Source: Clostridiaceae bacterium (lineage in GTDB: Bacteria > Bacillota > Clostridia > Peptostreptococcales > Peptostreptococcaceae). Taken from it: 64,000 bases of DNA. A model generated the notes under the pieces. The model was not told the origin of the DNA, did no database searches, and saw only the letters and a list, made by a program, of their open reading frames with translations. The translations under genes and the position numbers were made by a program. Shown here piece by piece: positions 49,906 through 64,000 of this stretch. Where the stretch lies: the NCBI GenBank assembly GCA_902362365.1, contig CABIVQ010000008.1, positions 1-64,000 on the forward strand, read 5' to 3'. Numbering within the stretch: position 1 is the first letter of the stretch; each line of letters starts with the position of its first letter.

Positions 49906-50526
49906 TTATTTTAAATATATTGTTAAATTTTTTAGTTGCTTTGTTATAAACATTCCAACTCCTATACTACTTTCTATATGCATTATTTTTTGTATTGAAT
50001 TATCAAATAGAACAGTAGCGTTTGCAGAGATTTCATCATCTCCTTCCCATATTACTACACATATAGGAACTCTTGGAAATATATTAAATATTGCACTAGC
50101 ATCGCCAAATTTATACTCAGTCCCACCTAGACCTAAAGCTAGCATTGAAAATATATCACTACTATATCCAAATTCTTTAATTAATGTCTCTATAGAGCTT
50201 TTATAAAATGCTGGGTAATATAAATCCCCTCCATTTGGGATTTCTTTCAAACTGACCCACTTATTTTCTACCTTTATATCATCATCTGAAAAACCTAAAT
50301 AATTTAGAAGTGTTATAGCTAAAGATATATCCATATCTTCTAAAGTTTCTATATTATAAATTTTCTCGCTATCGCAGTCCAATATATAATGGTCTCCAAG
50401 TATATCTATTTCAAAGATATTCACATCTTCTCTATATTTTACATCTCTTATTTTTGAAACACGATTGAAGTTTCTATCTTTTAACATTTTCCATCCTTGA
50501 TTATATGCAATGCGATAATTATTCAC
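49906..50526 (-). CDS. DUF3786-domain protein
   Basis: 206 residues. The block FPRVPICVVIWEGDDEISANATVLFD and the preceding GLGGTEYKFGDASAIF are those of DUF3786; the function of this family is not known, and members occur in anaerobes, sometimes with corrinoid or redox proteins. No membrane helix. The start is GTG at 50524-50526, with AGGAGGTGA 5 bases upstream. A hairpin with a T run ends directly before that ribosome binding site, so expression may depend on read-through of a leader terminator. Confidence 0.8.
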   Translation of the reverse strand: MNNYRIAYNQGWKMLKDRNFNRVSKIRDVKYREDVNIFEIDILGDHYILDCDSEKIYNIETLEDMDISLAITLLNYLGFSDDDIKVENKWVSLKEIPNGGDLYYPAFYKSSIETLIKEFGYSSDIFSMLALGLGGTEYKFGDASAIFNIFPRVPICVVIWEGDDEISANATVLFDNSIQKIMHIESSIGVGMFITKQLKNLTIYLK

Positions 50527-50539
50527 TTAATCACCTCCT

Positions 50540-50573
50540 AAAAAAGCTAGTAAATCAAAGTAGATTACTAGCT
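50540..50573 (-). terminator. Leader terminator/attenuator before the DUF3786 gene
   Basis: On the minus strand GCTAGTAA and TTACTAGC form an 8-bp stem, extended by two pairs past a bulge, followed by TTTTTT and then AGGAGG of the gene. The tail on the opposite strand is poor, so the orientation points into DUF3786. An upstream AUGAAGUAGUUU (about 50590) could pair with the stem's AUCUACUUU as an antiterminator (inference). Confidence 0.6.
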
Positions 50574-50657
50574 CTTATATAAATATTTTAAACTACTTCA
50601 TTTCAAAGAAATACATGTACTTTTTAATACTCTATTCAATATAAATTAGTTGTGTTC

Positions 50658-50762
50658 TTATTTTCCCCATTTTAATTCATATACAAAGTATAATATACTT
50701 ATATTTATATATAGTATCATAATGTTTGTATTCTCACAGTTTTTTTCTAAATTTTCAAACAT
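50658..50762 (-). CDS. Putative 34-residue single-span membrane peptide
   Basis: ATG at 50760-50762 preceded by AAGGAG at 6 bases, an excellent ribosome binding site. The product starts MFENLEKNCENTN, has one hydrophobic stretch IMILYINISILYFVYEL and ends KWGK. The longer frame to 50858 has no ribosome binding site. It lies in the leader of the DUF3786 gene, upstream of the attenuator-like hairpin, so it may be a small membrane protein or a leader peptide. No family recognised. Confidence 0.45.
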   Translation of the reverse strand: MFENLEKNCENTNIMILYINISILYFVYELKWGK

Positions 50763-50844
50763 TTTTTCTCCTTGATTGATTTTATATAAGGAATTAAAAT
50801 TATATAATAATATAAACTTTATTTGAGACTTGAAAGGAAAATAT

Positions 50845-51456
50845 ATGAACGATATCAATTATGAAAATTTATTAAATATTAATACTTTTGGAGAGGAAAA
50901 CTGGAAAGATAAGTTTAGTCACTATCATCCTTATCAAGCAACATCTTATTCAGCCCTTGATACTTTATTTGAAAATTATAGAGTAAATGAAGATGATTAT
51001 ATTGTTGATTTTGGTTGTGGTAAAGGTAGGCTTATCTTTTATATAAATTACTACTTTAATGCAAGCTGCTGTGGAGTTGAAATGAATAATGACTTTTATA
51101 AAACTTGTTTAGATAATAAATCTTCATATTTAATTAAAAATAAGAAACTTAAAAATAAGATTAAATTTGAAAATACCTTTGCCGAGAATTACAAAATTAG
51201 CTTAAATGATAATAAATTTTACTTCTTTAATCCTTTTTCTCTACAGATTTTTATTAAGGTTATAGACAATATACTAGATTCCTTAGAAGCAAACATGAGA
51301 CCTGTAGAACTAATTTTATACTATCCATCTAGTGATTATATTTATTACTTAGAAAATAATACCCCTTTTGTTATTGAAAGAGAAATAATTTTAGATAATT
51401 TATATACTAAAGACAACAATGAAAGATTTTTAGTGTATAAGCTTGCTTATTGCTAA
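50845..51456 (+). CDS. SAM-dependent methyltransferase
   Basis: 203 residues from the ATG at 50845 with AAAGGA 7 bases before; a TTG 15 bases earlier is part of the upstream signal. Motif I is VDFGCGKGRLIFY and motif IV-like FYFFNPFS; the order of strands fits a class I Rossmann methyltransferase of the type found in small-molecule or lipid methyltransferases. An HPYQATSYSALDTLF stretch near the N-terminus may hold substrate. Substrate unknown. Confidence 0.75.
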   Translation: MNDINYENLLNINTFGEENWKDKFSHYHPYQATSYSALDTLFENYRVNEDDYIVDFGCGKGRLIFYINYYFNASCCGVEMNNDFYKTCLDNKSSYLIKNKKLKNKIKFENTFAENYKISLNDNKFYFFNPFSLQIFIKVIDNILDSLEANMRPVELILYYPSSDYIYYLENNTPFVIEREIILDNLYTKDNNERFLVYKLAYC

Positions 51457-51462
51457 AATGTA

Positions 51463-51514
51463 AAATAGGAGTATCTTACAATATATTAACATTGTATGGT
51501 ACTCCTATTTTTGT
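51463..51514 (+). terminator. Terminator of the methyltransferase gene
   Basis: AAATAGGAGTA (51463-51473) pairs with TACTCCTATTT (51500-51510) and the stem continues inward with CAAT/ATTG; a T run follows. Confidence 0.8.
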
Positions 51515-51555
51515 GCTTTGATTTATTAAAAATAATACTATATTTAATATAATAA

Positions 51556-51756
51556 TTACTTGCTTAACTCTTCGAATAACTCTTCTTGAGATTGCTTTAT
51601 AGTAAGTATTCCATCAACCTTTACAACAGCTTCTTTTTTATAAGCTCTACATTGTCCTATACAGCCTCTTTGAACCTTTTCTTTTCCTACTACTTCTTCT
51701 AATTTATCCATATCCACATTTGAACAATATGGACAAGCTCTAACTAAATTTATCAT
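51556..51756 (-). CDS. DUF1450 (YuzB-like) small Cys protein
   Basis: 66 residues with CPYC near the start and GCIGQC in the middle, the two cysteine pairs of DUF1450/UPF0349; a short Ile/Lys-rich end follows. The thioredoxin-like ferredoxin pattern CxxC plus CxxxC suggests an iron-sulphur or zinc site. AGGAGG before the ATG at 51756. Function unknown. Confidence 0.8.
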   Translation of the reverse strand: MINLVRACPYCSNVDMDKLEEVVGKEKVQRGCIGQCRAYKKEAVVKVDGILTIKQSQEELFEELSK

Positions 51757-51786
51757 GTCTAAATCCTCCTAAATAATTGTTCTTAT

Positions 51787-51897
51787 TCAGTTAATACCCG
51801 AAATTTGAATCATTAAACACAATTTAGTATTTTCATCTGCAGTCATTAAGAACTTTGTACCCCCACATGCACTTGATACGCCTTGTAGGGATATCAT
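51787..51897 (-). CDS. Possible 36-residue ORF or decayed coding fragment
   Basis: An ATG at 51895-51897 opens 36 codons reading MISLQGVSSACGGTKFLM, then an acidic TADENTKL and a hydrophobic end. Composition and codon use look protein-like, but no ribosome binding site precedes the ATG and no family is recognised. It may be the end of a lost gene upstream of DUF1450. Confidence 0.25.
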   Translation of the reverse strand: MISLQGVSSACGGTKFLMTADENTKLCLMIQISGIN

Positions 51898-52019
51898 TGT
51901 AAAAGTATTCAAATTATATTTTATACTAGTATACCATAATCAACAATATCATTTATATAATTAATCTTATATAGGATACTCATACTCTTTCTTAATATAA
52001 GATACTTTAAGTAACTAGA

Positions 52020-52853
52020 TTATTTATATTTTTTTATTTCATTGTAATATTCTTTTGGTGTAATACCAAATTCCTTTTTGAAAGCACGGAATAAATTATT
52101 ATAACTTCCTATTCCACAAATATGTGCAACATCTATTATTGTATTTCCCTCTTCAATAAGCTTTTTACATAAATCTAATTTAGCTTTTACTATATAACGA
52201 TGTAATGTTATTCCTGTAGCTTTCTTGAATTCTCTCGATATATGAAATTTACTAACATAAAATTCTCTTTCAAGATCATCAAGAGAAATCTCTTCTGTAA
52301 TATGGTTGTTAATATATGAAAATATATCGTCAATTAAAAATGGTTTACTTTTTTTTATTTTTTGTTTTGGTTCAGCGTAAATACATGATCTTAGTATTAG
52401 AACTAAAACTATTGATAGCATACTTTTTATGTATAAGTTATTAGCAAATTCAAAACTATCTTCTTTTAAGTACACAAGCTTTTTTAATATATTTTTTATT
52501 AACATAGTTGTTTCTGTACTTGCATCTATAACTACACACTCAAAAGGTACAGTATTAAAACTTTTAACAAGGTCTGTTTCTTCATCAGATAATTTATCTA
52601 GTAATTCTGTTGTAACGGATAGTTCATAGATTACTAGAAGTTGCTTTGATTTTGACTCTATATCAATAAAATTATTAGGACTTATTAAAATAATATTATC
52701 AGTGCTACACCTTTGAGATTGATTATTTAAATTTAAATTACAATCTCCTGAAAATACAAATAATATTTTATAATATTTATTTGATTTAATTCTTTTAGTT
52801 TTTATATTATTAAATTTAAATTCCCTTACAAAATAATCCTTTTTATCAATCAT
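52020..52853 (-). CDS. AraC-family transcriptional regulator
   Basis: 277 residues from the ATG at 52851-52853 with GGGTGG upstream; a GTG nine bases earlier is part of the ribosome binding site. N-terminal 120 residues form a cupin-like sensor (KILFVFSGDCNLNLN, DNIILISPNNFIDIESKSKQLLVIYE). The C-terminal 100 residues are the double helix-turn-helix: ISLDDLEREFYVSKFHISREFKKATGITLHRYIVKAKLDLCKKLI and TIIDVAHICGIGSYNNLFRAFKKEFGITPKEYY. It diverges from the transporter-hydrolase-reductase operon, making it the probable activator of that operon in response to the imported compound. Confidence 0.9.
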   Translation of the reverse strand: MIDKKDYFVREFKFNNIKTKRIKSNKYYKILFVFSGDCNLNLNNQSQRCSTDNIILISPNNFIDIESKSKQLLVIYELSVTTELLDKLSDEETDLVKSFNTVPFECVVIDASTETTMLIKNILKKLVYLKEDSFEFANNLYIKSMLSIVLVLILRSCIYAEPKQKIKKSKPFLIDDIFSYINNHITEEISLDDLEREFYVSKFHISREFKKATGITLHRYIVKAKLDLCKKLIEEGNTIIDVAHICGIGSYNNLFRAFKKEFGITPKEYYNEIKKYK

Positions 52854-52914
52854 TAATACCACCCTTTTATAGTTTAATAGCTAATATATCAATTTTTGTT
52901 AATATTATATCAAG

Positions 52915-52970
52915 ATATGAATATAATTTTATTTTACAATATGAGATAATAAAAATACAAATAAATATGA
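52915..52970 (+). promoter_or_regulatory. Spaced ATATGA half-sites in the divergent control region
   Basis: Three copies of ATATGA at 52915, 52939 and 52965, 24 and 26 bases apart, lie between the AraC gene and its likely target operon. AraC-type proteins bind such non-palindromic direct half-sites. In AT-rich DNA chance repeats are possible, and no good promoter hexamers stand out. Confidence 0.3.
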
Positions 52971-53027
52971 CAGTTTTGTTAAATTTATTTACAATCTATT
53001 TTTTATCAATAACAAGGGGGTTAATTT

Positions 53028-54392
53028 ATGCAAAAGTTTTCAATGAAAGATAAGATTGGTTATACTCTGGGGGATTTAGGATGCTGCTGTACAGAGCAAT
53101 TTAGGGCTATGTTTTTAACAGTATTTTATACATTAGTTCTAAAAGTTAATCCTATTCATGTCGGTACAATAATGTTAATAACAAAATTTTGGGATGCTAT
53201 TAATGACCCTATAATTGGTGCCATTATAGATTCTCGTAAAGCAAAACCTGGTAAAAAATTTATACCTTGGATTCGTACATTTTCAATACCATGTGCAATA
53301 TTAATGTGTATTGGATTTTTAAATGTTTCTAATTTAAATTATGGTTTAAAGTTAGCTTATATTTTAATTACTTATGTTCTATATGAAGCTATGTATACTT
53401 GTGTAAATGTTCCATTTGGGTCATTATCAAGTGTTATGACAGATGATACTAATCATCGTACAGATTTATCAAGATACAGAAGTTTAGGCGGAACTATTTT
53501 TATGACTGTAATAGTTATCGTTGGACCACTATTTTTATATAAAGATAATGTACCTGTTCCTTCAAACTTTTTACTATTAGCTATTATTTGCGCTTGTGTA
53601 AGCGTTTTCTGCTTACAAATCACATCTATTTGGTGTAAAGAACGTGTTGAGTTACCTCACGTAGAGAAGGAAAAGTTTAATTACTTTGAAGTATTAAAAA
53701 ATATTTCTAAAAATAAAGCTTTATTAGGAGTTATAATTGCTAGTTTAGTTGGAATGATATCAGCTAGTGTTGTTAATGGATTAAATACTTACTTATTTAA
53801 AGATTATTTTGGTAATGTAAAGATCATGGCTGTATCAGGAATGCTAAGTACTGTTTATTCAATAATCACATTTGTTGGTACTAAGTTTGTTGCTAATAAA
53901 TTTGGTAAAAAAGAATGGTGTATATATGGGGCTGGTTTTGCTGCAATAGTGTATGGAGTTTTATTCTTCTTCCCAATAGATAATCCTATAATGTTTATAA
54001 TAATCAATGGAGTTTGCTATATAGGAGCATCAGGCTTCCAAATACTAATTTGGGCTATGGTAAATGACTCAATAGATTATCAAGAATTACAAACTGGAAC
54101 TCGTAATGAAAGTATAATCTACTCTACATATTCATTCTTTAGAAAACTTGCTGCTGCTTTAAGTGCGAGTTTAAGTAGTTTTATACTTGCATTTATAGGA
54201 TATAATGTACATGCTTCTACTCAAACTGCAGAAGTTGCTTCAAAGCTTTGGAAATCGTATACAGGAATTTACTCTATAGGATATTTAATAGCAATATTAG
54301 CATTATTCTTTATATATCCTTTAAGTAAGAAAAAAACTCAAGAGATGTTAGAAGAATTATCAATCAAAAGAAGAAATATGAAAAATATTTAA
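53028..54392 (+). CDS. GPH-family (MelB-like) cation symporter
   Basis: 454 residues and 12 predicted membrane helices of the glycoside-pentoside-hexuronide:cation symporter group (MFS_2). The N-terminal MKDKIGYTLGDLGCCC segment, the signature KFWDAINDPIIGAIIDSRK after helix 2 and the DWQELQTG-like DYQELQTGTRNES motif near helix 9 are all family marks. Ribosome binding site AAGGGGG. First gene of an operon with a hydrolase and a BilR-like reductase. GPH relatives move sugars and glucuronides, and some clostridial members are linked to steroid or aromatic compounds. A glucuronide conjugate is an attractive cargo, not demonstrated. Confidence 0.88.
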   Translation: MQKFSMKDKIGYTLGDLGCCCTEQFRAMFLTVFYTLVLKVNPIHVGTIMLITKFWDAINDPIIGAIIDSRKAKPGKKFIPWIRTFSIPCAILMCIGFLNVSNLNYGLKLAYILITYVLYEAMYTCVNVPFGSLSSVMTDDTNHRTDLSRYRSLGGTIFMTVIVIVGPLFLYKDNVPVPSNFLLLAIICACVSVFCLQITSIWCKERVELPHVEKEKFNYFEVLKNISKNKALLGVIIASLVGMISASVVNGLNTYLFKDYFGNVKIMAVSGMLSTVYSIITFVGTKFVANKFGKKEWCIYGAGFAAIVYGVLFFFPIDNPIMFIIINGVCYIGASGFQILIWAMVNDSIDYQELQTGTRNESIIYSTYSFFRKLAAALSASLSSFILAFIGYNVHASTQTAEVASKLWKSYTGIYSIGYLIAILALFFIYPLSKKKTQEMLEELSIKRRNMKNI

Positions 54393-54419
54393 AATATATC
54401 AAGTAATAGGAGATCAATA

Positions 54420-55181
54420 ATGATTAAATTAGTAGAAATAAAAAATCGAAAAAATAAAACATTAAGAGGTGTACTTACTCTTCCTGATAATATAGAAAAT
54501 CCTTTTATCGTATTAAATCTACATGGATTTGGAGGAAGTATGTCAGGGCATAAATATGCTCATACTCATTTATCAAGAGTACTTGATTCTAACGGATTTG
54601 GATGTGCTAGATTTGACTTTTATGGTTGTGGTGAAAGTGATGGAGAATTTGAAGAAATGACTTTTACTGGTCTTATAGAAGATACTATTGATATGTACAA
54701 TTGGCTAATTGATTCTAAAATAACAACTTCTGATAAAATCATACTATCTGGTCATAGTATGGGTGGTTATGTAGCTGCATGTACTGCTCCAAAGTTACAA
54801 CCAATTGCTTTAATTCTTATGTGCCCTGGTGCTGGAATGTGGTACGGTTGCAAAGAGCGTGCAGATGAACTGAAAAATAAATCAATACAATATGCTAATA
54901 TGGAAGGCTTAAAATTTAATATTGATTTCAATTATGATTTATACAACTATGAACCATTCTCAAGTGCTATGGGATATGACAAAGATGTTCTAATTATAAG
55001 AGGAACTGAAGATAAATTAGTTGATAATCGTACTTGCCAAGCTTATTTAGATTGTTATAACAGCGATAAAACAACATATATAGAAATTGAGGGCGGAGAT
55101 CATAATTTTGCAAATATAAAAGCTAAAAGTGAATGTGAAAATGCAATTATTGATTTTTGCAAATTAATTAATAATAAATAA
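54420..55181 (+). CDS. Alpha/beta-hydrolase esterase
   Basis: 253 residues. Catalytic triad Ser113 in GHSMGG, Asp198 in RGTEDKLVD and His228 in GGDHNF; the oxyanion hole is HGFGGS (35-40). The layout FDFYGCGESDGEFEEMTFTGLIED matches the cinnamoyl/feruloyl-esterase-like group of gut lactobacilli (LJ0536 type), which hydrolyses small aromatic acyl esters. A 40-residue cap lies between strands 6 and 7. No signal peptide, so it acts in the cytoplasm on imported compounds. It sits between the importer and the BilR-like reductase, 27 and 38 bases away, so an ester conjugate of the reductase substrate is the likely target. Confidence 0.85.
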   Translation: MIKLVEIKNRKNKTLRGVLTLPDNIENPFIVLNLHGFGGSMSGHKYAHTHLSRVLDSNGFGCARFDFYGCGESDGEFEEMTFTGLIEDTIDMYNWLIDSKITTSDKIILSGHSMGGYVAACTAPKLQPIALILMCPGAGMWYGCKERADELKNKSIQYANMEGLKFNIDFNYDLYNYEPFSSAMGYDKDVLIIRGTEDKLVDNRTCQAYLDCYNSDKTTYIEIEGGDHNFANIKAKSECENAIIDFCKLINNK

Positions 55182-55219
55182 ATATAAAATAATTAAGAAA
55201 AAATTTAGGGGGGATTTAT

Positions 55220-57142
55220 ATGAAACTTTTAGAAACAATCAATGTAGGAAATATTACATTAAAGAATAGAGTTATGTTTCCACCATTAACTACTGGTTAT
55301 GAGGGTAGAGATGGTAGTATAACTAAACAAAGTATTGAATTTTATGAAAGGTTAGCAAAAGGTGGTGTTTCATACATAGTAATAGGTGATGTTTCTCCGA
55401 TTAATAGTTTTTCTCCTACACCAAAACTATATGATGATAGCCAAATTGAAGGTTTTAAAAAATTATGTGACTCAATACATAAACATGGGGCTAAAGTTTC
55501 TGTTCAGATATTTCACCCAGAATATGACTGTGATGCTATAAATAAGATGTTTGCAAGTGGTGATATGAAAGCTGTAAGAGAAAAATTACATCACGATATG
55601 AAGCACTTTGTTAATGAAGTAAGTGAAGAAGGCTTAAATAATATTATAAGTAAAATGTGTGATTGTGCAATTAGAGCTCAAAAAGCTGGTGTTGATATTA
55701 TTCAAATACATGGTGATAGATTAGTTGGTTCATTATGTAGTACTATATTAAATAAAAGAAATGATAAATTTGGTGGTTCTCTAGAAAATAGAACAAGATT
55801 TGCTATACAACTTGTAAAATCATTAAAAGAAGCAGTTCCTAATATGCCTATTGATTATAAATTCTCAGTTGTTACACCACAAAGGGGTAAAGGTGGAATA
55901 AACTTAGATGAAGCACCTACATTTGCTAAGTGGTTAGAAGAAGCTGGAGTTGATATGCTTCATGTAGCCCAAGCAAATCATACTGGTAATATGGCAGATA
56001 CGATTCCTCCAATGGGTGTTCAACCATATGGATTCTTTGTTGATATTGCTGGGCAAATAAAGAAATCAGTAAATATTCCAGTTAGCACAGTTGGTAGAAT
56101 ATTTAATCCTAAAATGGCTGAAAGTATTCTAGAGTCTAATAAATCAGATATAATTGGACTTGGTAGAATTTTACTTGCAGATCCTGATTGGATTAACAAA
56201 GTAAAAGATAACAAATCTGAAGATATACGTGAATGTATATGTTGTAATAAAGGATGTACTGATAATATACAAGAGCGTAAGTTCTTAAGCTGTGTGCTAA
56301 ATGCTGAAAATGGATATGAAGGAACTAGAAAAATAACTGAAGCTGAAACTAAGAAAAAAGTTATAGTAGTAGGTGGTGGACCTGCAGGACTTGAAGCTGC
56401 ACGTGTAGCAAGTTTAAAAGGTCATAATGTTACTTTATTTGATGAAAATACATCTCTAGGAGGACAATTAAATTTAGCTTGTATACCTCCTAGAAAAAAT
56501 GAAATACGTAGAGCTATTAGATTTTTAACACATTCAGTAACTTCTCAAAATGTGGAATTAAAGCTTGGAAAAAAAGTAACTCAAGAAGATATATTAGCTC
56601 TACAACCAGATGCTGTGTTAGTTGCAGTAGGTGCAAGTAATGTTATACCAAATATAGATGGATATAATAAACATATGGTATGTGATTCATGGAAAATCTT
56701 AAATGGTGAACAACAAGTATTTGGAAATATTGCTGTTATTGGTGGAGGTATGGTAGGCTGTGAGGTAGCTGAGTACTTATGTCTTCAAGAAGGAAATAAT
56801 GTTTCTATAATTGAAATGGATGATAGCATAGCTAAGGGTGAAAGCAATACAATACTTCCAACGCTAATGGAAAATTTCAATAAAAATAATGTTAAAATCT
56901 ATACTAATCATAAAGTTAATAAAATAGATAGTGAATATATAATTTGTGAAAATGATAATAATGAAATTAAAATACCTTGTGATTACGTAGTTATGGCAGT
57001 TGGTGCTAGACCTAATAATTTTAATGTTGACAAACTATTAGAAAATAATATTAAAGTTGTTAAAATCGGTGATTGTAAAGATAGAGCCTCTGATATTGAA
57101 AATGCAATTAAAACTGCTTATGATGCTGCTAACGAAATATAA
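55220..57142 (+). CDS. bilR: Bilirubin reductase-like flavoenzyme (BilR-type OYE/Fe-S/FAD reductase)
   Basis: 640 residues of the 2,4-dienoyl-CoA reductase/BaiCD architecture: FMN-binding old-yellow-enzyme barrel (1-330, starts NITLKNRVMFPPLTTGYEG), a [4Fe-4S] motif C339-x2-C342-x3-C346-x11-C358, and FAD/NAD(P) domains (GGGPAG at 385-390, second GGGMVGCE). Ordinary relatives carry HGAHGYL after the strand at residue 163, where H-G-Y acts in proton transfer. Here it reads HGDR at 164-167, then LVGSLCS. From memory, D166 and R167 in an HGDR motif are the residues identified in BilR, which reduces bilirubin to urobilinogen. Length and domain set also fit the long BilR form. GGGGG before the ATG. 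Third gene of the operon; no flavodoxin-like bilS is adjacent. If not BilR, an unassigned ene-reductase. Confidence 0.78.
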   Translation: MKLLETINVGNITLKNRVMFPPLTTGYEGRDGSITKQSIEFYERLAKGGVSYIVIGDVSPINSFSPTPKLYDDSQIEGFKKLCDSIHKHGAKVSVQIFHPEYDCDAINKMFASGDMKAVREKLHHDMKHFVNEVSEEGLNNIISKMCDCAIRAQKAGVDIIQIHGDRLVGSLCSTILNKRNDKFGGSLENRTRFAIQLVKSLKEAVPNMPIDYKFSVVTPQRGKGGINLDEAPTFAKWLEEAGVDMLHVAQANHTGNMADTIPPMGVQPYGFFVDIAGQIKKSVNIPVSTVGRIFNPKMAESILESNKSDIIGLGRILLADPDWINKVKDNKSEDIRECICCNKGCTDNIQERKFLSCVLNAENGYEGTRKITEAETKKKVIVVGGGPAGLEAARVASLKGHNVTLFDENTSLGGQLNLACIPPRKNEIRRAIRFLTHSVTSQNVELKLGKKVTQEDILALQPDAVLVAVGASNVIPNIDGYNKHMVCDSWKILNGEQQVFGNIAVIGGGMVGCEVAEYLCLQEGNNVSIIEMDDSIAKGESNTILPTLMENFNKNNVKIYTNHKVNKIDSEYIICENDNNEIKIPCDYVVMAVGARPNNFNVDKLLENNIKVVKIGDCKDRASDIENAIKTAYDAANEI

Positions 57143-57158
57143 CTTCATATAAATATAA

Positions 57159-57195
57159 AAGAATCTCCTTATAAATTCAAGGAGATTCTTTTTCA
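57159..57195. terminator. Bidirectional terminator between bilR-like gene and dhaM
   Basis: AAGAATCTCCTT (57159-57170) and AAGGAGATTCTT (57179-57190) form a perfect 12-bp stem with an 8-base loop and T/A flanks. Confidence 0.9.
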
Positions 57196-57216
57196 TACAA
57201 AATTAACTTATTATAT

Positions 57217-57600
57217 TTACTTTTCTATTTGTAGATCTTTTATGGATTCCTTAATCTCTTCTAAACTCTTACCCATACTTGAGTCTATAGCAGCAACAAA
57301 AGCTCCTTCTACTAAGCTAACTTTACAGATTTCTACCTTTTTACTAATATACTCATCTAACATATCTATAGCTAATTCAGCATTCATAAGTGCACTTCCA
57401 ATATCAAAGAATAATAAAACTCCATCATCACTATAAACTTCTTCAATCGCACTCATAATTTTCATAGGATCTGTACCTATTCTGCCATCGTCAGTTCCAC
57501 CTGCAACACATATCTTAACACCTACAGCCATTTGGCTTATAAGATCTTTTAAACCTTCTACAAGTTTATTACTATGAGATACTAACACTATTCCAACCAT
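57217..57600 (-). CDS. dhaM: PTS-dependent dihydroxyacetone kinase phosphotransferase subunit DhaM
   Basis: 127 residues, an EIIA-Man-like domain only (no fused HPr/EI as in E. coli). The phosphorylated His9 is in VLVSHSNKLVEG, and GGTDDGRIGTD and DIGSALMNAELAID are DhaM blocks. It passes phosphate from HPr to ADP bound on DhaL. GGGG before the ATG, 2 bases after dhaL. Confidence 0.92.
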   Translation of the reverse strand: MVGIVLVSHSNKLVEGLKDLISQMAVGVKICVAGGTDDGRIGTDPMKIMSAIEEVYSDDGVLLFFDIGSALMNAELAIDMLDEYISKKVEICKVSLVEGAFVAAIDSSMGKSLEEIKESIKDLQIEK

Positions 57601-57602
57601 AA

Positions 57603-58238
57603 TTATTCCCCTTTTATGTATTCATATATTGTTTTTAGTATTAAGTAACTAGAAGTTGCACCAGCATCTTGATGCCCTATACTTCTATCTCCAAGATAAC
57701 TTGCTCTTCCTTTAGTGGCCTTTATTTCTTTTGTTTTCTCTACTCCTTCATATGCTGCTTTTTGTGCATTATCTAGGCAGTCAATAATAGATAAATCTTT
57801 TTCTTTTGATTCAATTAAAGAATTTAAAGCAGGCTCTATTGAATCTATCATAGTCTTTTCTCCAGCTACAGCCTTTCCTCTCATTTTTATTCCATCAAGT
57901 GAGGATTTTAAAACGTTTATAAAATCATCTAAATCTATTTCACTTTTATTGTTAAGTACAGGTGCAGCTTTCATAAATGCTGTTCCATATAATGGACCTG
58001 AAGCTCCACCAACTGTAGAAACTAAAGTCATACCTATCTTTTTAAATGTATTTCCTAAATTTTCACCATTGTCATCAACTAACTTTTCTTTTACTGCTTC
58101 AAAGCCTTTGCTCATATTAAGACCATGATCCCCATCACCTATAGCTGCATCTAGTTCTGTTAAATATAATTTATTTTCACTAATTACATCAGCTATTTTA
58201 TTAATTATGCTGATTACCTCAAATCCTTTTATACTCAT
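57603..58238 (-). CDS. dhaL: Dihydroxyacetone kinase ADP-binding subunit DhaL
   Basis: 211 residues. The Mg-ADP-binding aspartates appear in ELDAAIGDGDHGLNMSKGF, and GGASGPLYGTAFM plus GRASYLGDRSIGHQDAGATSSYL are the conserved nucleotide-lid regions. It acts as a bound ADP cofactor that is phosphorylated by DhaM and then phosphorylates dihydroxyacetone on DhaK. Confidence 0.93.
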   Translation of the reverse strand: MSIKGFEVISIINKIADVISENKLYLTELDAAIGDGDHGLNMSKGFEAVKEKLVDDNGENLGNTFKKIGMTLVSTVGGASGPLYGTAFMKAAPVLNNKSEIDLDDFINVLKSSLDGIKMRGKAVAGEKTMIDSIEPALNSLIESKEKDLSIIDCLDNAQKAAYEGVEKTKEIKATKGRASYLGDRSIGHQDAGATSSYLILKTIYEYIKGE

Positions 58239-58267
58239 AAATAATTATTCCCCCTTAAAATAAACTA

Positions 58268-59266
58268 CTATAATACCTTAAGTCCTAGTGTATCTGCTTT
58301 AGCATCAAGTAGTTCTTTTAACTCATCATCAAGTTTTAATATACTTACTGAGTATCCAGCCATTTCAAGAGACGTCATATATTCTCCAACAAATGTGTTA
58401 TAAATTTTTATTCCTTTATTAGTTAGTATTTCATTAACTGTTTTATTTGCAATGTAAAGCTCCATAAGAGGTGTTGACCCTAGTCCATTTACCATTACAG
58501 CAACCTCTTCACCTTCAACTATTTCTATATCTGCTAATATTTTATCTAGTAAATGAGTAGTAATATCATTAGCACTTGATATTTCTTCTTTATGAGTTCC
58601 TGGTTCTCCATGTATACCCATTCCTATTTCTATTTCATTTTCTTCCAATGTGAAGTTTGGTTTTCCTGCTGCTGGAACTGTACAAGGGCTTAGTGCCATT
58701 CCCATACTTCTAACATTTTTTATTACTTTATTAGCTACTTCTTTTACTTGATTTAGTGTTGCTCCTTGTGTTGCTTTCGCACCTGCTATTTTATGTACAA
58801 ATACAGTACCTGCAATCCCTCTTCTACCTGCTGTATATAGACTATTTTCAACAGCAACATCATCATTTACCACAACATAATCAACTTCTATACCATCCAT
58901 TTCTGCCATTTCTTTTGCCATTTCAAAGTTCATTACATCTCCAGTGTAATTTTTAATCACTAATAATACACCATTTCCACCGTTTACTTCTTTTATAGCT
59001 TCATATACTTGATCTGGAGTAGGAGATGTAAATACTTCACCACAAACTGCAGCATCAAGCATTCCGTATCCAACAAATCCACCATGTGATGGCTCATGTC
59101 CACTACCTCCACCACTTACTAGCCCAACTTTACCTTTTACTGGAGCATCTTTTCTTACTAAAATATTCCCATTCTCACTTTTTCTTACATAATTAGGATG
59201 TGCTAATATCATTCCTTGGATCATATCAGATACTACATTACTTGGATCATTGATTATTTTTTTCAT
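58268..59266 (-). CDS. dhaK: Dihydroxyacetone kinase substrate-binding subunit DhaK
   Basis: 332 residues. [21 protein letters not shown] and the covalent-binding His in [14 protein letters not shown] (about residue 215) are the substrate signature; dihydroxyacetone forms a hemiaminal with that His. Makes dihydroxyacetone phosphate with DhaL and DhaM. The 77-base gap to the upstream fumarase gene holds a TATAAT but no convincing -35, so it may have a weak promoter of its own or be read from malic enzyme onwards. AGGGGG before the ATG. Confidence 0.94.
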
Positions 59267-59343
59267 TTTAATTAATCCCCCTAAATAACATTTTCCTTAA
59301 TAATATTATAGCACTAAATTTTTTACTATATTGTATTTAAAGC

Positions 59344-59871
59344 TTAGTTTCTTTCATAAATATTGTTACCATAACTGTCTATTGCAACAATTAACTTTAA
59401 ATCTTCTACTTCAATTTTTCTTATTGCTTCTGCTCCTAAGTAATCATATGCAATAACTTCACAAGACTTTATAGAATTAGATATATACGCTCCAGCACCT
59501 CCAATAGCAGCTAAATATACTGAACCATATTCTTTCATAGCTTCTATAACCTCTTTATCTCTCTTTCCTTTACCTATCATTATCTTAAGGCCTTTTTCTA
59601 ATAGAGGAATTGTTAAGTCATCCATTCTATAACTTGTCGTTGGTCCTGCTGATCCTATTATTTCTCCTGGTTTTGTAGGTGTAGGTCCTACGTAGTAAAT
59701 ACCTTGATTTTTCACATCAAATGGTAAATCTTTCCCCCCCTTTATATTTTCAATCATTAGTTTATGAGCTGCATCTCTTGCTGTATATAAAACACCACTT
59801 AAACTTATACTATCTCCACACTTTAATTTTCTTATTTCTTCAGTTGAGATTGGTGTACTTATTTCTATCAT
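59344..59871 (-). CDS. fumB: Fumarate hydratase class I, beta subunit
   Basis: 175 residues equal to the C-terminal part of class I fumarase/tartrate dehydratase: GDSISLSGVLYTARDAAHK, YVGPTPTKPGEIIGSAGPTTSYRMD and GKGKRDKEVIEAM. Needs the alpha subunit that carries the [4Fe-4S] cluster. GGGGG before the ATG, 13 bases after the alpha gene. Confidence 0.92.
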   Translation of the reverse strand: MIEISTPISTEEIRKLKCGDSISLSGVLYTARDAAHKLMIENIKGGKDLPFDVKNQGIYYVGPTPTKPGEIIGSAGPTTSYRMDDLTIPLLEKGLKIMIGKGKRDKEVIEAMKEYGSVYLAAIGGAGAYISNSIKSCEVIAYDYLGAEAIRKIEVEDLKLIVAIDSYGNNIYERN

Positions 59872-59884
59872 CTTATTCCCCCTA

Positions 59885-60727
59885 TTATATAACTACTTTT
59901 TTATGTCTTGATGCATGACAGTTTATATTTACCACAACTGGTAATCCCGCTATATGAGTTGGAAAAGTCTCAATATTTACAGCTAAAGCAGTGGTATTTC
60001 CTCCTAGGCCTTGAGGACCTATACCTAAGCTATTTATTTCTTTCAGCAGTTCTATTTCTAAATCAGCTATATAACTATCTTTATAATTATATTTTCCAAC
60101 ATCTCTTAATAAAGCTTTTTTAGCGATTTGAGCACATTTATCAACTGTTCCTCCTATCCCTACTCCAACTACAATAGGAGGGCATGGATTAGGACCTGCT
60201 TCTTTAACAGTTTCTATTATAAATTTTTTAATTCCATCAACTCCATCTGATGGCTTTAGCATCTTTAACTTACTCATATTCTCACTACCAAATCCTTTTG
60301 GTGCAAATTCTATTACAAGCTTATCTCCTTTAACCATTTCATAATGAATAATTGCAGGGGTATTATCTTTTGTATTCTTTCTAGTTAGAGGATGAACAAC
60401 TGATTTTCTTAAATAACCTTCTTCGTATCCTTTTCTTACACCATCATTAATCGCTTCTTCTATTGTTTTTCCTTCAATTATTACCTCTTGCCCTAATTGT
60501 ACGAAAAATACTGCCATGCCTGTATCTTGGCATATTGGTATTGCCTTTTCTTTAGCTATATTTGCATTTTCAATTAATATATTTAATATATCCTTACCTA
60601 CAGGGTTTTGTTCTTTAGGTAAATTACTTTCTATGCAAGTTAGTACATCTTCTCCTAAATATAAGTTAGCTTCTATACATAACCTTTTTACTTCTTTTGT
60701 AGTATCATCTGATGATATAGTCCTCAT
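59885..60727 (-). CDS. fumA: Fumarate hydratase class I, alpha subunit
   Basis: 280 residues. Cluster cysteines appear in AIPICQDTGMAVFF, AGPNPCPPIVVGVGIGGT and INCHASRHKKVV, in the usual order; LGIGPQGLGGNTTALAVNIE is the family block. Split alpha/beta layout common in anaerobes. Interconverts malate and fumarate. AGGGG before the ATG, 20 bases after the malic enzyme gene, so malate can be fed either to pyruvate or fumarate. Confidence 0.93.
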   Translation of the reverse strand: MRTISSDDTTKEVKRLCIEANLYLGEDVLTCIESNLPKEQNPVGKDILNILIENANIAKEKAIPICQDTGMAVFFVQLGQEVIIEGKTIEEAINDGVRKGYEEGYLRKSVVHPLTRKNTKDNTPAIIHYEMVKGDKLVIEFAPKGFGSENMSKLKMLKPSDGVDGIKKFIIETVKEAGPNPCPPIVVGVGIGGTVDKCAQIAKKALLRDVGKYNYKDSYIADLEIELLKEINSLGIGPQGLGGNTTALAVNIETFPTHIAGLPVVVNINCHASRHKKVVI

Positions 60728-60746
60728 TAAAATTTCCCCTTTTTAT

Positions 60747-61940
60747 TTATATATAAACCTCATCCTTGCTTAATTTTGATACATTAGTTTCAATAGCAAC
60801 CTCTGCTACTTTTTTAGCAACACTTTCAGCAACTCTCTTGTCAAAAGCTCCAGGTATAATATAATCTTCATTTAATGCTTCTTCATTTATTATTGATGCT
60901 ATCGCTATTGCTGCAGCTTTTTTCATTTCCTCTGTTATATCTGTTGCTCTAACATCTAAAGCACCTCTAAATATTCCTGAAAACACTAATACGTTATTTA
61001 TTTGATTTGGGAAATCTGATCTTCCTGTTGCTACGATTCTAGCTCCACCTTTTTTTGCTTCTTCAGGAGTTATTTCTGGTATTGGATTTGCCATTGCAAA
61101 AATTATTGGGTCTTTAGCCATTGTTGATACCATTTCACTTGTTACACATTTAGGTCCTGATACACCTATAAGTACATCCTTATTTTTAATAATATCTTTC
61201 AATGTTCCTACTTCATTGTATTTATTAGTCACTTTAGATATTTCTACTTGAGCTTCATTCATCCATACTTCCCCATTTGCTAGTGCTCCTTTTTTATCTA
61301 CAAGTACTACGTTACCTACTCCAAATTGTAAAAGCAATTTACAAATTGATATTCCAGCAGAACCTGCACCATTAATTACTACATTTATATCTTCCATTTT
61401 CTTTTTAACTATTTTCAATGAATTTATTAGTCCCGCAGCAACTACTATTGCAGTTCCATGTTGGTCGTCATGAAATACAGGTATATCTAATTCTTCTTTT
61501 AATCTTCTTTCTATTTCAAAACATCTTGGTGCAGATATATCTTCTAAATTTATACCTCCAAAAGTAGGTGCTAAATATTTTACAGTTTTAACTATTTCAC
61601 CAACATCTTTAGTGTCTAAACAAATAGGAAAAGCATCTATTCCTGCAAATTCTTTAAATAATATTGCCTTGCCTTCCATAACTGGCATAGATGCTTCTGG
61701 ACCAATATCTCCAAGGCCTAATACAGCTGTTCCATCTGATACTACTGCAACTAGGTTTCCTTTTGAAGTATATGTATATACATCTTCTTTATTTTCATAT
61801 ATTTTTCTACAAGGCTCAGCAACACCTGGTGTATATGCTGTGCTTAAATCGTTTCTATTTTTTACTTCTACTTTTGATATAACCCCTATTTTGCCTTTAT
61901 TATTTTTGTGCATTTCTAAACTTAACTTATTAAAATCCAT
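60747..61940 (-). CDS. NAD(P)-dependent malic enzyme
   Basis: 397 residues, the short prokaryotic malic enzyme (no phosphotransacetylase domain). Catalytic Tyr in NDLSTAYTPGVAEPC, Lys in GNLVAVVSDGTAVLGLGDIGPEASMPVMEGK, metal ligands in FEIERRLKEELDIPVFHDDQHGTAIV, and NAD(P) motif NGAGSAGISIC. Oxidative decarboxylation of malate to pyruvate. First gene of the cluster with fumarase and probably dhaKLM. AAGGAG upstream. Confidence 0.93.
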   Translation of the reverse strand: MDFNKLSLEMHKNNKGKIGVISKVEVKNRNDLSTAYTPGVAEPCRKIYENKEDVYTYTSKGNLVAVVSDGTAVLGLGDIGPEASMPVMEGKAILFKEFAGIDAFPICLDTKDVGEIVKTVKYLAPTFGGINLEDISAPRCFEIERRLKEELDIPVFHDDQHGTAIVVAAGLINSLKIVKKKMEDINVVINGAGSAGISICKLLLQFGVGNVVLVDKKGALANGEVWMNEAQVEISKVTNKYNEVGTLKDIIKNKDVLIGVSGPKCVTSEMVSTMAKDPIIFAMANPIPEITPEEAKKGGARIVATGRSDFPNQINNVLVFSGIFRGALDVRATDITEEMKKAAAIAIASIINEEALNEDYIIPGAFDKRVAESVAKKVAEVAIETNVSKLSKDEVYI

Positions 61941-62443: not shown

Positions 62444-62481
62444 AAGTAAGTTATTTTCACATGAAAGGAAGGAAAAATAAT

Positions 62482-64000
62482 ATGTCATTAAAACATAAAA
62501 TCATAAATATCGCGGTTATAGCCCACGTTGATGCTGGAAAGTCAACATTAGTTGATGCTTTCTTATCTCAATCTGGGGTATTCAGAGAAAACGAAGTAGT
62601 AAAAGATTGTGTAATGGATAGTAATGACCTTGAAGCAGAAAGAGGTATAACAATATATTCTAAAAACTGTTCTATAAACTACAAAGATTACAAAATAAAT
62701 ATAGTAGATACACCAGGACATAGTGACTTCTCTTCTGAAGTTGAACGTGTTATCAAAACTGTTGATACAGTTATATTACTAGTAGATGCTAGTGAAGGGC
62801 CAATGCCTCAAACTAGATTCGTTTTACAAAAATCATTAGAAGCAGGACTTAGACCTATACTTTTCATCAATAAAATAGATAAGCAAGATCAAAGAGCTGA
62901 AGAAGTTGTTGATGAAGTATTCGACTTATTCGTTGACTTAAATGCTAATGATGAACAATGTGAGTTCCCAATAATATACGGTATAGCTAAACAAGGTATA
63001 GCTAAGAGAGAATTAGATGATGAAAGTACTGACCTTTCTCCTTTATTCGAAACTATAACTGAGCATGTTGAAGCTTACCCAGACTTTGACAATGAGCCTT
63101 TACAACTTCAAGTATCTGCTCTTGCATATGATGATTATGTAGGTAGACTTGGTATAGGTAGAGTTTACAAAGGAACTGTTAAAAATGGTGAACAAGTTTC
63201 TATATGTAAAGCTGACGGAAGTGTAGCTAGAGGTAGAATAACTAAACTTACAGTATATGAAGGATTAAATCAAATAGAAAAAGCAGAAGCTTATTCTGGT
63301 GATATAGTAGTTGTTGCTGGTATATCTGATATATCTATAGGTGAAACTATATGTAACTTAGATAATCCATTACCAATGGAAATGATACACATAGAAGAAC
63401 CTACTCTATCAATGAACTTCTTAGTAAATGATTCTCCATTCTGTGGTAAGAGTGGTAAGTTCGTTACTACAAGACATATAAAAGATAGATTAGATAAAGA
63501 ATTAGAAGTTAACGTTGGACTTAAAGTTGAGCCAATGGATACTACTGATGGATACAGAGTATCTGGACGTGGAGAACTTCACTTATCTATACTTCTTGAA
63601 AATATGAGACGTGAAGGTTACGAAATAGGTGTTTCTAAGCCAGAAGTTTTAATGCATAGAGAAGATGGTAAATTATTAGAACCAATGGAAAGAGTTATAG
63701 TTAACTGTCCAGAAGTTTACTCAGGAACTGTTATAAACAAATTAAACCTTAGAAAAGGTCTTATGGAATCTATGTCTATAGAAGGAGATTATGTAAAAAT
63801 AGAATTTATAGCTCCTACTCGTGGATTATTAGGTTACAGAAGTGAATTCATAAATGATACTCGTGGAGAAGGTACTTTAGTTCGTTCATTCGAAAGATAT
63901 GAAGAGCATAAAGGTGAAATACCAGGAAGAAGTAACGGAGTTTTAATAGCTCAAGGACCAGGAACAACTATGGGATATGCACTTAATGCTTTAAGTGAAA
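62482..64000 (+). CDS. typA: Ribosome-associated GTPase TypA/BipA, 3' end outside window
   Basis: About 506 codons visible of some 605-610. G1 AHVDAGKST, switch I with RGITI, G3 [16 protein letters not shown]4 NKIDKQD, then domain II and the EF-G-like C-terminal part ([14 protein letters not shown] and GLLGYRSEF). BipA associates with 50S assembly and is important in cold or stress. AAGGAAGG lies 9-10 bases before the ATG. Not fused or disrupted in the visible part; the frame remains open at the right edge. Codon use is richer in A-ending and tidy codons than many neighbours, as expected for a well-expressed gene. Confidence 0.96.

Follow-up and report, generated by a model that had tools for sequence, protein, structure and literature searches.

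A three-gene run encoding a GPH-type cation symporter, an alpha/beta-hydrolase esterase and a long-form bilirubin reductase (BilR), with a divergent AraC-type regulator gene, was found in the stretch of DNA that was analysed (the window, 64,000 nucleotides). Judged from its sequence, the reductase very probably functions as a BilR. For the operon as a whole, the reading that we tentatively favour, at a probability of roughly 0.4, is that it serves the uptake and ester cleavage of a conjugated bile pigment, followed by reduction by BilR, under one regulator.

The locus and its reductase

The regulator gene (HTH_AraC) occupies positions 52020-52862 on the minus strand and diverges from the operon on the plus strand, where the genes for the symporter (53028-54392, 454 aa; MFS_2 and TIGR00792), the esterase (54420-55181, 253 aa; Hydrolase_4/Abhydrolase) and the long, non-insertion form of BilR (55220-57142, 640 aa) follow one another with gaps of 27 and 38 bp. 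The initial annotation had described an AraC regulator diverging from a GPH symporter, esterase and reductase run, and both the open reading frames and their domains bore this out. It had also raised the question of whether the transporter and esterase accompany bilR elsewhere, and the complete four-gene set was found in the same order in five other genomes (loci L001, L002, L003, L005 and L113), from the Clostridiaceae, Peptostreptococcaceae and Oscillospiraceae. Comparison of the window with L001, L003 and L002 gave dN/dS values of 0.07-0.17 for the three structural genes. On the strength of these two sequence comparisons, the gene order symporter-esterase-reductase is more than chance.

A terminator-like hairpin at 57157-57192 separates the operon from the convergent genes; on the plus strand it folds at -17.2 kcal/mol (z -5.5), with none of 200 shuffles equally stable. 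The terminator scan, which found two terminators in the region compared with 0.9 in shuffles, lists this hairpin for the minus strand only; the plus-strand version also ends in a U run. Neighbouring ORFs of at least 100 aa, scanned from 49906 to 61940, gave DUF3786, methyltransferase, AraC, EIIA-man, Dak2, Dak1, two fumarase parts and malic enzyme. The host of the operon is probably a gut bacterium.

The reductase scored 1046.2 bits against the NCBIfam model NF045599, 'bilirubin reductase, long form' (cut-off 750), and 551.6 bits against the bilirubin-reductase model NF045592 (cut-off 425), but 488 bits against the BaiCD equivalog NF041087, below its cut-off of 825. The earlier description of the enzyme as 'BaiCD-like' thus stands as a statement of homology and falls as one of identity. 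The HGDR motif noted at residues 164-167, which includes D166 and R167, was present, and the same motif was seen in 113 of 114 BilR rows; the remaining row, L058, reads HGGR and scores below the family cut-off. An Fe-S motif, CX2CX3CX11C, is shared with 83 of the 87 long BilR rows, and the domains Oxidored_FMN and Pyr_redox_2 cover the FMN and FAD/NAD parts. Placement in a tree, as had been suggested, agreed with the models in grouping the reductase with the long BilRs rather than outside BilR. It fell in a group of 69 long BilRs (support 99), in a tree none of whose rows is labelled as an assayed BilR, such as those of R. gnavus, C. symbiosum and F. intestinalis; four long BilRs (L030, L031, L032 and L034) fell outside that group. 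The long group was apart from seven BilV-like rows (support 100) and 13 short BilRs. From the rows for this tree, 13 that were duplicates or fragments and a further 15 similar ones had been dropped beforehand, and seven of 32 second reductases were added. The cassette label needed three changes on this tree, a number equally low in 27 of 500 shuffles.

Regulation and distribution of the cassette

The regulator scored 58.7 bits against PF00165 and 56.3 bits against PF12833. Its relatives showed 68-85% identity in L001, L002, L003, L005, L019 and L142 and 41% in L113, and each was divergent from the adjoining gene. The intergenic region between the regulator and symporter genes spans 165 bp. Alignment of the intergenic regions revealed a direct repeat with a 21-bp period, ATCAAYTTTNG-N10-ATCAA (52888-52913, plus strand), in all eight loci carrying this regulator, and this operator is the probable site of the AraC-type protein. 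Its conservation in front of the run in all eight loci supports the proposal of a single AraC regulator over the three genes. Each of the six genomes with the regulator had one site with 0-1 mismatch, in every case at this locus; when only the window was searched and two mismatches were allowed, the one match obtained was no more than chance. Beyond the regulator-linked sites, the search of eight genomes returned only sites with 2-3 mismatches, against 0-1 site per strand for the pattern run backward as a control, so no further members of a larger regulon are claimed. The operator overlaps a candidate operon promoter, TTAATA-17-TATAAT (52899-52927, plus strand), which came from a promoter scan in which promoter-type matches were no commoner than in shuffles (42 versus 40.0). 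Its TATAAT/TATGAT element was kept in 8/8 loci.

Apart from the complete sets, a split copy of the cassette was present in Terrisporobacter, where the regulator-symporter half was located through the operator pattern and the esterase was not seen. A diverged esterase (44%) adjoins BilR in Collinsella. Close copies of all three proteins were found in C. perfringens, with adjacency not seen; this species is reported in PMC10769871 to reduce bilirubin. Among 72,556 plasmid records, the best-ranked GPH, esterase and BilR matches fell in one record, OY725841.1, with the genes adjacent. The GPH match was 71.8% (next 36.9% among the 12 matches listed), the esterase match 51.4% (others at most 30.3% among the 12 listed) and the BilR match 67.2% (others at most 31.7% among the 20 listed). 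The origin of this record as a plasmid is doubtful because a gene for a peptide-chain release factor lies on it. In IMG/VR, neither the symporter nor the esterase turned up in pattern scans, a method that is limited to close relatives. Transfer of the cassette from one family to another is possible.

Esterase relatives with E no higher than 1e-40 are rare: among 381 genomes of the class they were present in two, and one of the two cases is this cassette. An esterase tree was built from 108 of 120 listed relatives (235-265 aa) and seven loci, with genomic context known for few rows. The ten BilR-linked rows, of which P0002, P0009 and P0017 were labelled only from shared longest-contig sizes, needed nine label changes, matched in 117 of 500 shuffles; they were scattered, and a single clade of BilR-linked esterases was therefore rejected, although the test is a weak one. 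In the protein lists, shared longest-contig sizes (39305, 50687 and 10828) hint at more linked sets and were not counted as evidence. A fourth shared size (4468), pairing a Lysobacter/Flavobacterium-like BilR with an esterase, was judged to be chance.

Candidate roles of the symporter and esterase

Under the favoured reading, the AraC-type protein would sense the pigment or its conjugate and activate the operon from the direct-repeat site, which is recognised by its conservation. Driven by a cation gradient, the symporter would import bilirubin as a soluble ester conjugate, with the mono- or diglucuronide as the likeliest form, and the cytosolic serine esterase would split the acyl ester to give bilirubin and a sugar acid. 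BilR would then reduce the methine bridges with FMN, Fe-S, FAD and NAD(P)H, where the chemistry is taken from relatives and the cofactors are predicted from the domains, and bilirubin reduction may serve the cell as an electron sink. The transporter and esterase would form an access module that can be missing from a locus which retains the other parts; L019 has the regulator, operator and BilR but neither of these two genes. That the cassette is a dedicated mobile pathway, combining glucuronide import, esterase deconjugation without beta-glucuronidase, reduction and a bile-pigment-responsive AraC switch, is rather unlikely. Acyl-migrated isomers are not known to be cleaved by beta-glucuronidase, and esterase deconjugation independent of that enzyme could therefore handle them.

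The symporter scored 286.2 bits against TIGR00792 (GPH:cation symporter, cut-off 231.35) and 200.4 bits against the UidB glucuronide-transporter equivalog NF007353, below its cut-off of 528. It shares a fold family with the GPH symporters MelB and UidB/GusB and with MFSD2A. Both aspartates that form the cation site in MelB are kept, whereas the sugar-contact aspartates Asp19 and Asp124 of MelB are replaced by Cys20 and Asn127.

In the esterase, a candidate triad of Ser113, Asp198 and His228, assigned by reading, was invariant in 37 aligned rows, and no signal peptide was seen by eye. The AlphaFold model had a pLDDT of 92.8, and its best folds and nearest solved relatives were the monoacylglycerol lipase TTL (7q4h) and feruloyl and cinnamoyl esterases. 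Like the short-lid esterases TTL, GthFAE (7wwh), Est1E and LJ0536, it is an alpha/beta-hydrolase with a small lid, at about 33% identity or less to the solved members. The aromatic cluster Phe37/Phe77/Phe170 is kept, with Phe170 corresponding to TTL Phe175 as counted along the alignment. No sequence mark of glucuronide specificity or acyl-glucuronide cleavage was found in the operon proteins. Human ABHD10 (6ny9), described as an alpha/beta hydrolase that splits acyl-glucuronides, offers a functional precedent (PMC8389839). UxaC, for glucuronate use, was encoded in all five genomes with a complete or split cassette, and also in G059 and G006, neither of which shows a transporter or esterase by BilR (the upstream flank of L006 is just 216 bp).

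A bile-pigment operon might also work differently, with the symporter moving unconjugated or amide-conjugated pigment or exporting the product, the esterase acting on another ester, and a beta-glucuronidase elsewhere performing the deconjugation. Membership of the reductase in the BilR family fits this as well, and because the symporter scores best, among solved relatives, with the MFSD2A lysophospholipid symporters, a non-sugar cargo is possible. The taurine of such a conjugate is reportedly not removed first. Moreover, a GH2 beta-glucuronidase was encoded in three of the five cassette genomes (G001, G002 and G004), in which esterase cleavage is consequently not needed; the absence of beta-glucuronidase was thus rejected as support for esterase deconjugation. 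Romboutsia timonensis, which has the complete cassette, gave a single GH2 hit, a beta-galactosidase. We nevertheless consider this alternative somewhat unlikely, as six complete loci, and Collinsella too, retain an esterase alongside BilR, under purifying selection, which would be odd for an enzyme outside the pathway. Passenger status on the BilR promoter, with the esterase and symporter drawn from lipid or monoacylglycerol metabolism, would suit a nearest solved esterase that is a monoacylglycerol lipase and nearest solved transporters that carry lysolipids, but is improbable given that the linkage is conserved across families. The glycerol-binding Glu43 of TTL is replaced by Gly43, invariant in 37 rows; this is a weak point against a lipid role, since the TTL authors describe Glu43 as non-conserved and TTL-specific and the E43A variant retains about a third of the activity.

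Other substrates would change the role of the reductase or its pigment. Plant hydroxycinnamate esters could be imported, the acid freed by the esterase and its side chain saturated by the reductase; the esterase fold and its feruloyl and cinnamoyl relatives are consistent with this, and enoate reduction is old-yellow-enzyme chemistry. It is made unlikely by the wide margin over the bilirubin-reductase cut-offs, by HGDR and by the position among long BilRs, and also by the BilR loci at large: in 99 of 108, neither such an esterase nor the transporter lay in the flank fetched (nine of the 99 had less than 2.3 kb upstream). This count weighs against the favoured reading too, as do the L019 locus, the lipase and feruloyl-type relatives of the esterase, the missed UidB cut-off, the three label changes on the BilR tree and the scatter of BilR-linked esterases. 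Plant phyllobilins, or another linear tetrapyrrole from the diet, would be a very improbable substrate; phyllobilins bear methyl esters and glucosides, and the esterase would then act like MES16, a plant methylesterase. A linear-tetrapyrrole reductase, a glycoside-type transporter and an esterase would fit that chemistry in principle, and BilR-family genes are present in Flavobacterium, Psychrobacter and Acinetobacter; however, among the loci fetched the esterase adjoins BilR only in Bacillota and Collinsella, and six Flavobacterium- and Psychrobacter-type BilR loci had neighbours unrelated to the cassette.

Comparison with known bilirubin reductase systems

Hall et al. (PMC10769871) call for experiments on bilirubin diglucuronide to confirm in which order deconjugation and reduction take place. 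The operon supplies a candidate transporter, deconjugating enzyme and sensor for conjugated bilirubin, and it can be cloned whole as one 5-kb piece, with L019 as a natural relative missing just two genes. If import and cleavage of the conjugate precede reduction as favoured here, certain bacteria would dispose of the conjugate with no release of the free, reabsorbable pigment into their surroundings, and such an intracellular route would bear on jaundice. To our knowledge, these would be the first bacterial bilirubin transporter, sensor and deconjugating esterase.

The main texts of two BilR papers (PMC10769871 and PMC13252198) make no mention of a transporter, an esterase or an AraC regulator. 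As described in PMC10769871, the long BilR of R. gnavus has HGDR numbered 164-167, as here, a numbering that indicates no insertion ahead of the motif in this type of long form; its bilR stands alone, whereas the gene described here lies in an operon. The BilRs of C. difficile and C. symbiosum are given there as the short form. The bilR-bilV operon, as presented in PMC13252198, resembles the present one in joining BilR to a helper gene, but that helper is a second old yellow enzyme with an AHAH motif. Elsewhere, second enzymes of this kind do adjoin BilR, and 30 of the 32 carry AHAH; none, BilV-like or otherwise, is present in this operon.

In the bilQRS operon (PMC10769871, as described), the regulator bilQ is of the MarR type and bilS is flavodoxin-like. 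No equivalent of either was among the neighbours scanned (49906 to 61940, ORFs of at least 100 aa), and the regulator here is AraC-type. A flavodoxin beside the Subdoligranulum cassette was not treated as BilS, since its sole other match in the loci searched was L086, at 28%. Both operons centre on a BilR with HGDR and a linked regulator, to which the operon described here adds a symporter and an esterase.

Layout of the four genes and identity of the reductase

An AraC-type regulator gene (52020-52862, − strand) is followed on the + strand by genes for a GPH symporter (53028-54392), an esterase (54420-55181) and a reductase (55220-57142). These open reading frames coincided exactly with the four-gene layout of the initial annotation. 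Pfam and NCBIfam profiles identified the regulator as AraC-type, the transporter scored above the GPH model cut-off, the hydrolase was an alpha/beta-hydrolase with its catalytic triad residues present, and the reductase was a long old yellow enzyme. As the gaps within the run are only 27 and 38 bp, the symporter, esterase and reductase genes likely form one three-gene operon. A stable hairpin lies 3' of the last gene; the terminator scan called it for the convergent − strand only, and the + strand too ends in a U run. Convergent to the operon is a PTS-type dihydroxyacetone kinase set (Dak1, Dak2 and EIIA-man; 57217-59266, − strand).

The window reductase scored 1046 bits against the NCBIfam long bilirubin reductase model (cut-off 750) and 552 bits against the N-terminal model (cut-off 425). 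A BaiCD identity was rejected, the score being just 488 bits against a cut-off of 825. The HGDR motif lies at residues 164-167 compared with approximately 192-197 in relatives bearing an insertion, which identifies the protein by sequence as the non-insertion long form of BilR. The motif of R. gnavus BilR is likewise numbered 164-167, and changing D166 and R167 together lowered its activity, according to the text of PMC10769871. The position of the reductase relative to the BilR clade had been set as a test; it fell within a long-BilR group of 69 rows (99*) in a 93-row tree whose rows include no labelled assayed BilR. Seven BilV-like rows (a second old yellow enzyme, with an AHAH motif) formed one side of a 100* branch, and four long BilRs (~44-45% identity) lay outside the 69-row group. 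The tree was built by a quick method after removal of 28 duplicate, fragment or similar rows, with long branches flagged. The protein is very probably a bilirubin/biliverdin reductase. In L058, a Coriobacterial BilR-like gene below the family cut-off, HGGR replaces HGDR, possibly a natural motif variant.

Recurrence, linkage and possible transfer of the cassette

BilR loci were collected by scanning genome contigs for similarity, which gave 18 loci, and by genome draws with the BilR N-terminal model (E up to 1e-100). Positive genomes numbered 12/71 in the family of Romboutsia, 9/206 in that of C. thermobutyricum, 3/391 in the class draw (all three within these two family draws), 30/247 in the order of Collinsella, 45/244 in the order of an Erysipelotrichaceae MAG, 12/199 in the family of Psychrobacter and 2/199 in the Flavobacterium draw. 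One flanked locus was taken per genome, also where a genome had two copies (G1211 and G011), and 10 of the 30 from the Collinsella order were omitted. Removal of six duplicates and addition of the window and L113 (Subdoligranulum variabile) gave 108 distinct loci.

Co-occurrence of symporter and esterase with bilR in other genomes, a survey suggested at the outset, was borne out by five further complete loci. The four-gene set was thus complete in 6/108: the window, L001 (C. thermobutyricum), L002 and L005 (Clostridium MAGs), L003 (Romboutsia timonensis) and L113; such counts are not prevalence, since the scan chose loci resembling the window BilR. A Terrisporobacter MAG carried a split cassette, with regulator, operator and a 94.7% identical symporter at one contig end and BilR at another contig's start; the esterase was not seen in it. 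Neither symporter nor esterase was detected in the fetched flank of 99/108 loci (tblastn, E up to 0.01), nine of which have <2.3 kb upstream. In Collinsella sp. BA40 an esterase (44%) adjoins BilR. Upstream of that pair (L012:4142-6866) are genes for an ABC transporter permease, an NMT1-type binding protein and an ATPase, which may provide another route of import; a search for a TPP riboswitch gave nothing at the gathering score. By reading, Flavobacterium- or Psychrobacter-type BilR genes in six loci (L007, L010, L036, L100, L105 and L106) sit amid unrelated neighbours.

The gene set is real and conserved. Against L001, L003 and L002, the symporter gave dN/dS values of 0.07-0.11, BilR 0.11-0.16, the esterase 0.14-0.17 and the regulator 0.15-0.29, which indicates that selection maintains all four genes. 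Nor is the symporter-esterase-BilR linkage due to chance. When 72,556 plasmid records were searched, the top matches were 71.8% (symporter; next among the matches listed 36.9%), 51.4% (esterase; others listed at most 30.3%) and 67.2% (BilR; others listed at most 31.7%), and all three lay in a single 4.1-kb stretch of one record. Only that record reached at least 60% identity to the symporter (1/354) and BilR (1/1783). Of 381 genomes from the class, two had esterase relatives (E up to 1e-40): the one in the Romboutsia cassette and a second at 36%. The plasmid-labelled record of L113 (OY725841.1) has a Flavodoxin_4 gene beside the regulator; its label is doubtful because it carries a peptide-chain release factor gene.

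L003 and L019, a relative with regulator, operator and BilR, occupy the same genomic site: identity between them is 95.0% for BilR, 90.3% for the regulator, and 99.5% (TypA-like GTPase), 98.7% and 91.8% for three common flanking genes. L019 is without symporter and esterase, the break lying near a short AATAAATA repeat. Loss is the simplest reading, as its nearest tree relative and the others possess the pair. In Romboutsia the gene after BilR is that of the TypA-like GTPase; the window has six genes between the two, and its GTPase gene start (62461-63999, + strand) shows 91% identity to the Romboutsia gene, an indication of a Peptostreptococcaceae host. Although C. thermobutyricum is in a different family, its symporter shows 95.6% identity (dS 0.30), with no flanking gene in common within the compared stretch. 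This suggests transfer of the cassette between families, judged from cassette and flanks rather than a housekeeping-gene yardstick.

Possible roles of the symporter and esterase

The best-scoring solved relatives of the symporter were MFSD2A proteins, then MelB. The cation-site aspartates of MelB are retained; its two sugar-contact aspartates correspond to Cys20 and Asn127, so the cargo likely differs from that of MelB. The symporter fell short of the cut-off of the UidB glucuronide transporter model, and some C. perfringens copies carry the database label glucuronide permease. The esterase model (AlphaFold, pLDDT 92.8) best matched the monoacylglycerol lipase TTL (7q4h; TM 0.91) and feruloyl esterases. 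Further down, at rank 48, came mouse ABHD10 (TM 0.78); human ABHD10 offers a precedent for acyl-glucuronide cleavage, as described in PMC8389839. The aromatic cluster of TTL is kept, and its glycerol-binding Glu43 is Gly43, invariant across 37 rows. This says little about the substrate, because Glu43 is specific to TTL and E43A retains a third of activity, according to the TTL authors.

The glucuronate isomerase UxaC was found in 5/5 genomes with a complete or split cassette (G001-G005) and in two others (G059 and G006), and was absent from G007, G008 and G016. In a survey of the GH2 family, beta-glucuronidase (NF007538) passed in G001, G002 and G004, the split Terrisporobacter case. The sole GH2 match of G003 was a beta-galactosidase, the one scanned of two in G005 lay below its cut-offs, and the two in G059 were a beta-galactosidase and a protein below the glucuronidase cut-offs. 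Close copies of the three proteins occur in C. perfringens, matched singly and nearest to L002 (96.7, 88.5 and 91.4%), the esterase being marginally closer to L005 (89.3%). Hall et al. (PMC10769871) report bilR in 137/315 C. perfringens genomes and count the species among bilirubin reducers; a title in their reference list concerns its reduction of bilirubin ditaurate.

Import of a conjugated bile pigment by the symporter and its deconjugation by the esterase, ahead of reduction by BilR, is the best reading, though a tentative one. The strongest points against it are that the symporter resembles known glucuronide transporters poorly, that several hosts possess beta-glucuronidase, that many BilR loci lack the helper genes and that microbes reportedly act weakly on conjugated bilirubin. 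Among the papers listed, no title or abstract opening concerned a bilR-linked transporter or esterase, and 'transporter', 'esterase' and 'AraC' are absent from the main texts of PMC10769871 and PMC13252198. Judged on these listings and main texts, novelty is provisional.

The regulator and its candidate operator

The single AraC regulator fronting the run, as initially annotated, was corroborated by a candidate operator. Alignment of the operon-front gap over six loci revealed direct repeats, ATCAAYTTTNG-N10-ATCAA, 21 bp apart and followed by a conserved TATAAT. L113, whose regulator is just 41% identical, and L142 also carry the site. It is kept in 8/8 loci with the window-type regulator, with TATAAT or TATGAT behind; the pattern was derived from seven of these, so that the Terrisporobacter site alone is a prediction, matched by pattern and then located between regulator and symporter. 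Beyond the cassette loci and L019, only L033 matched among 129 loci searched, and the pattern was absent where the AraC gene at a BilR locus is a different, distantly related one. A single site with 0-1 mismatches occurred in 6/6 genomes with this regulator, always at this locus, and none in two short-BilR genomes. With two mismatches, in the window alone, the pattern was no rarer than chance.

In L029, from the C. thermobutyricum family draw, an AraC gene and an AHAH-type reductase gene are transcribed away from BilR. In the Erysipelotrichales draw, BilR and/or a BilV-like AHAH reductase often has just upstream an AraC-type gene with 21-32% identity to that of the window (L059, L061-L065, L070, L071, L078, L080, L082, L084, L089 and others), whereas the published bilR-linked regulator is MarR-type.
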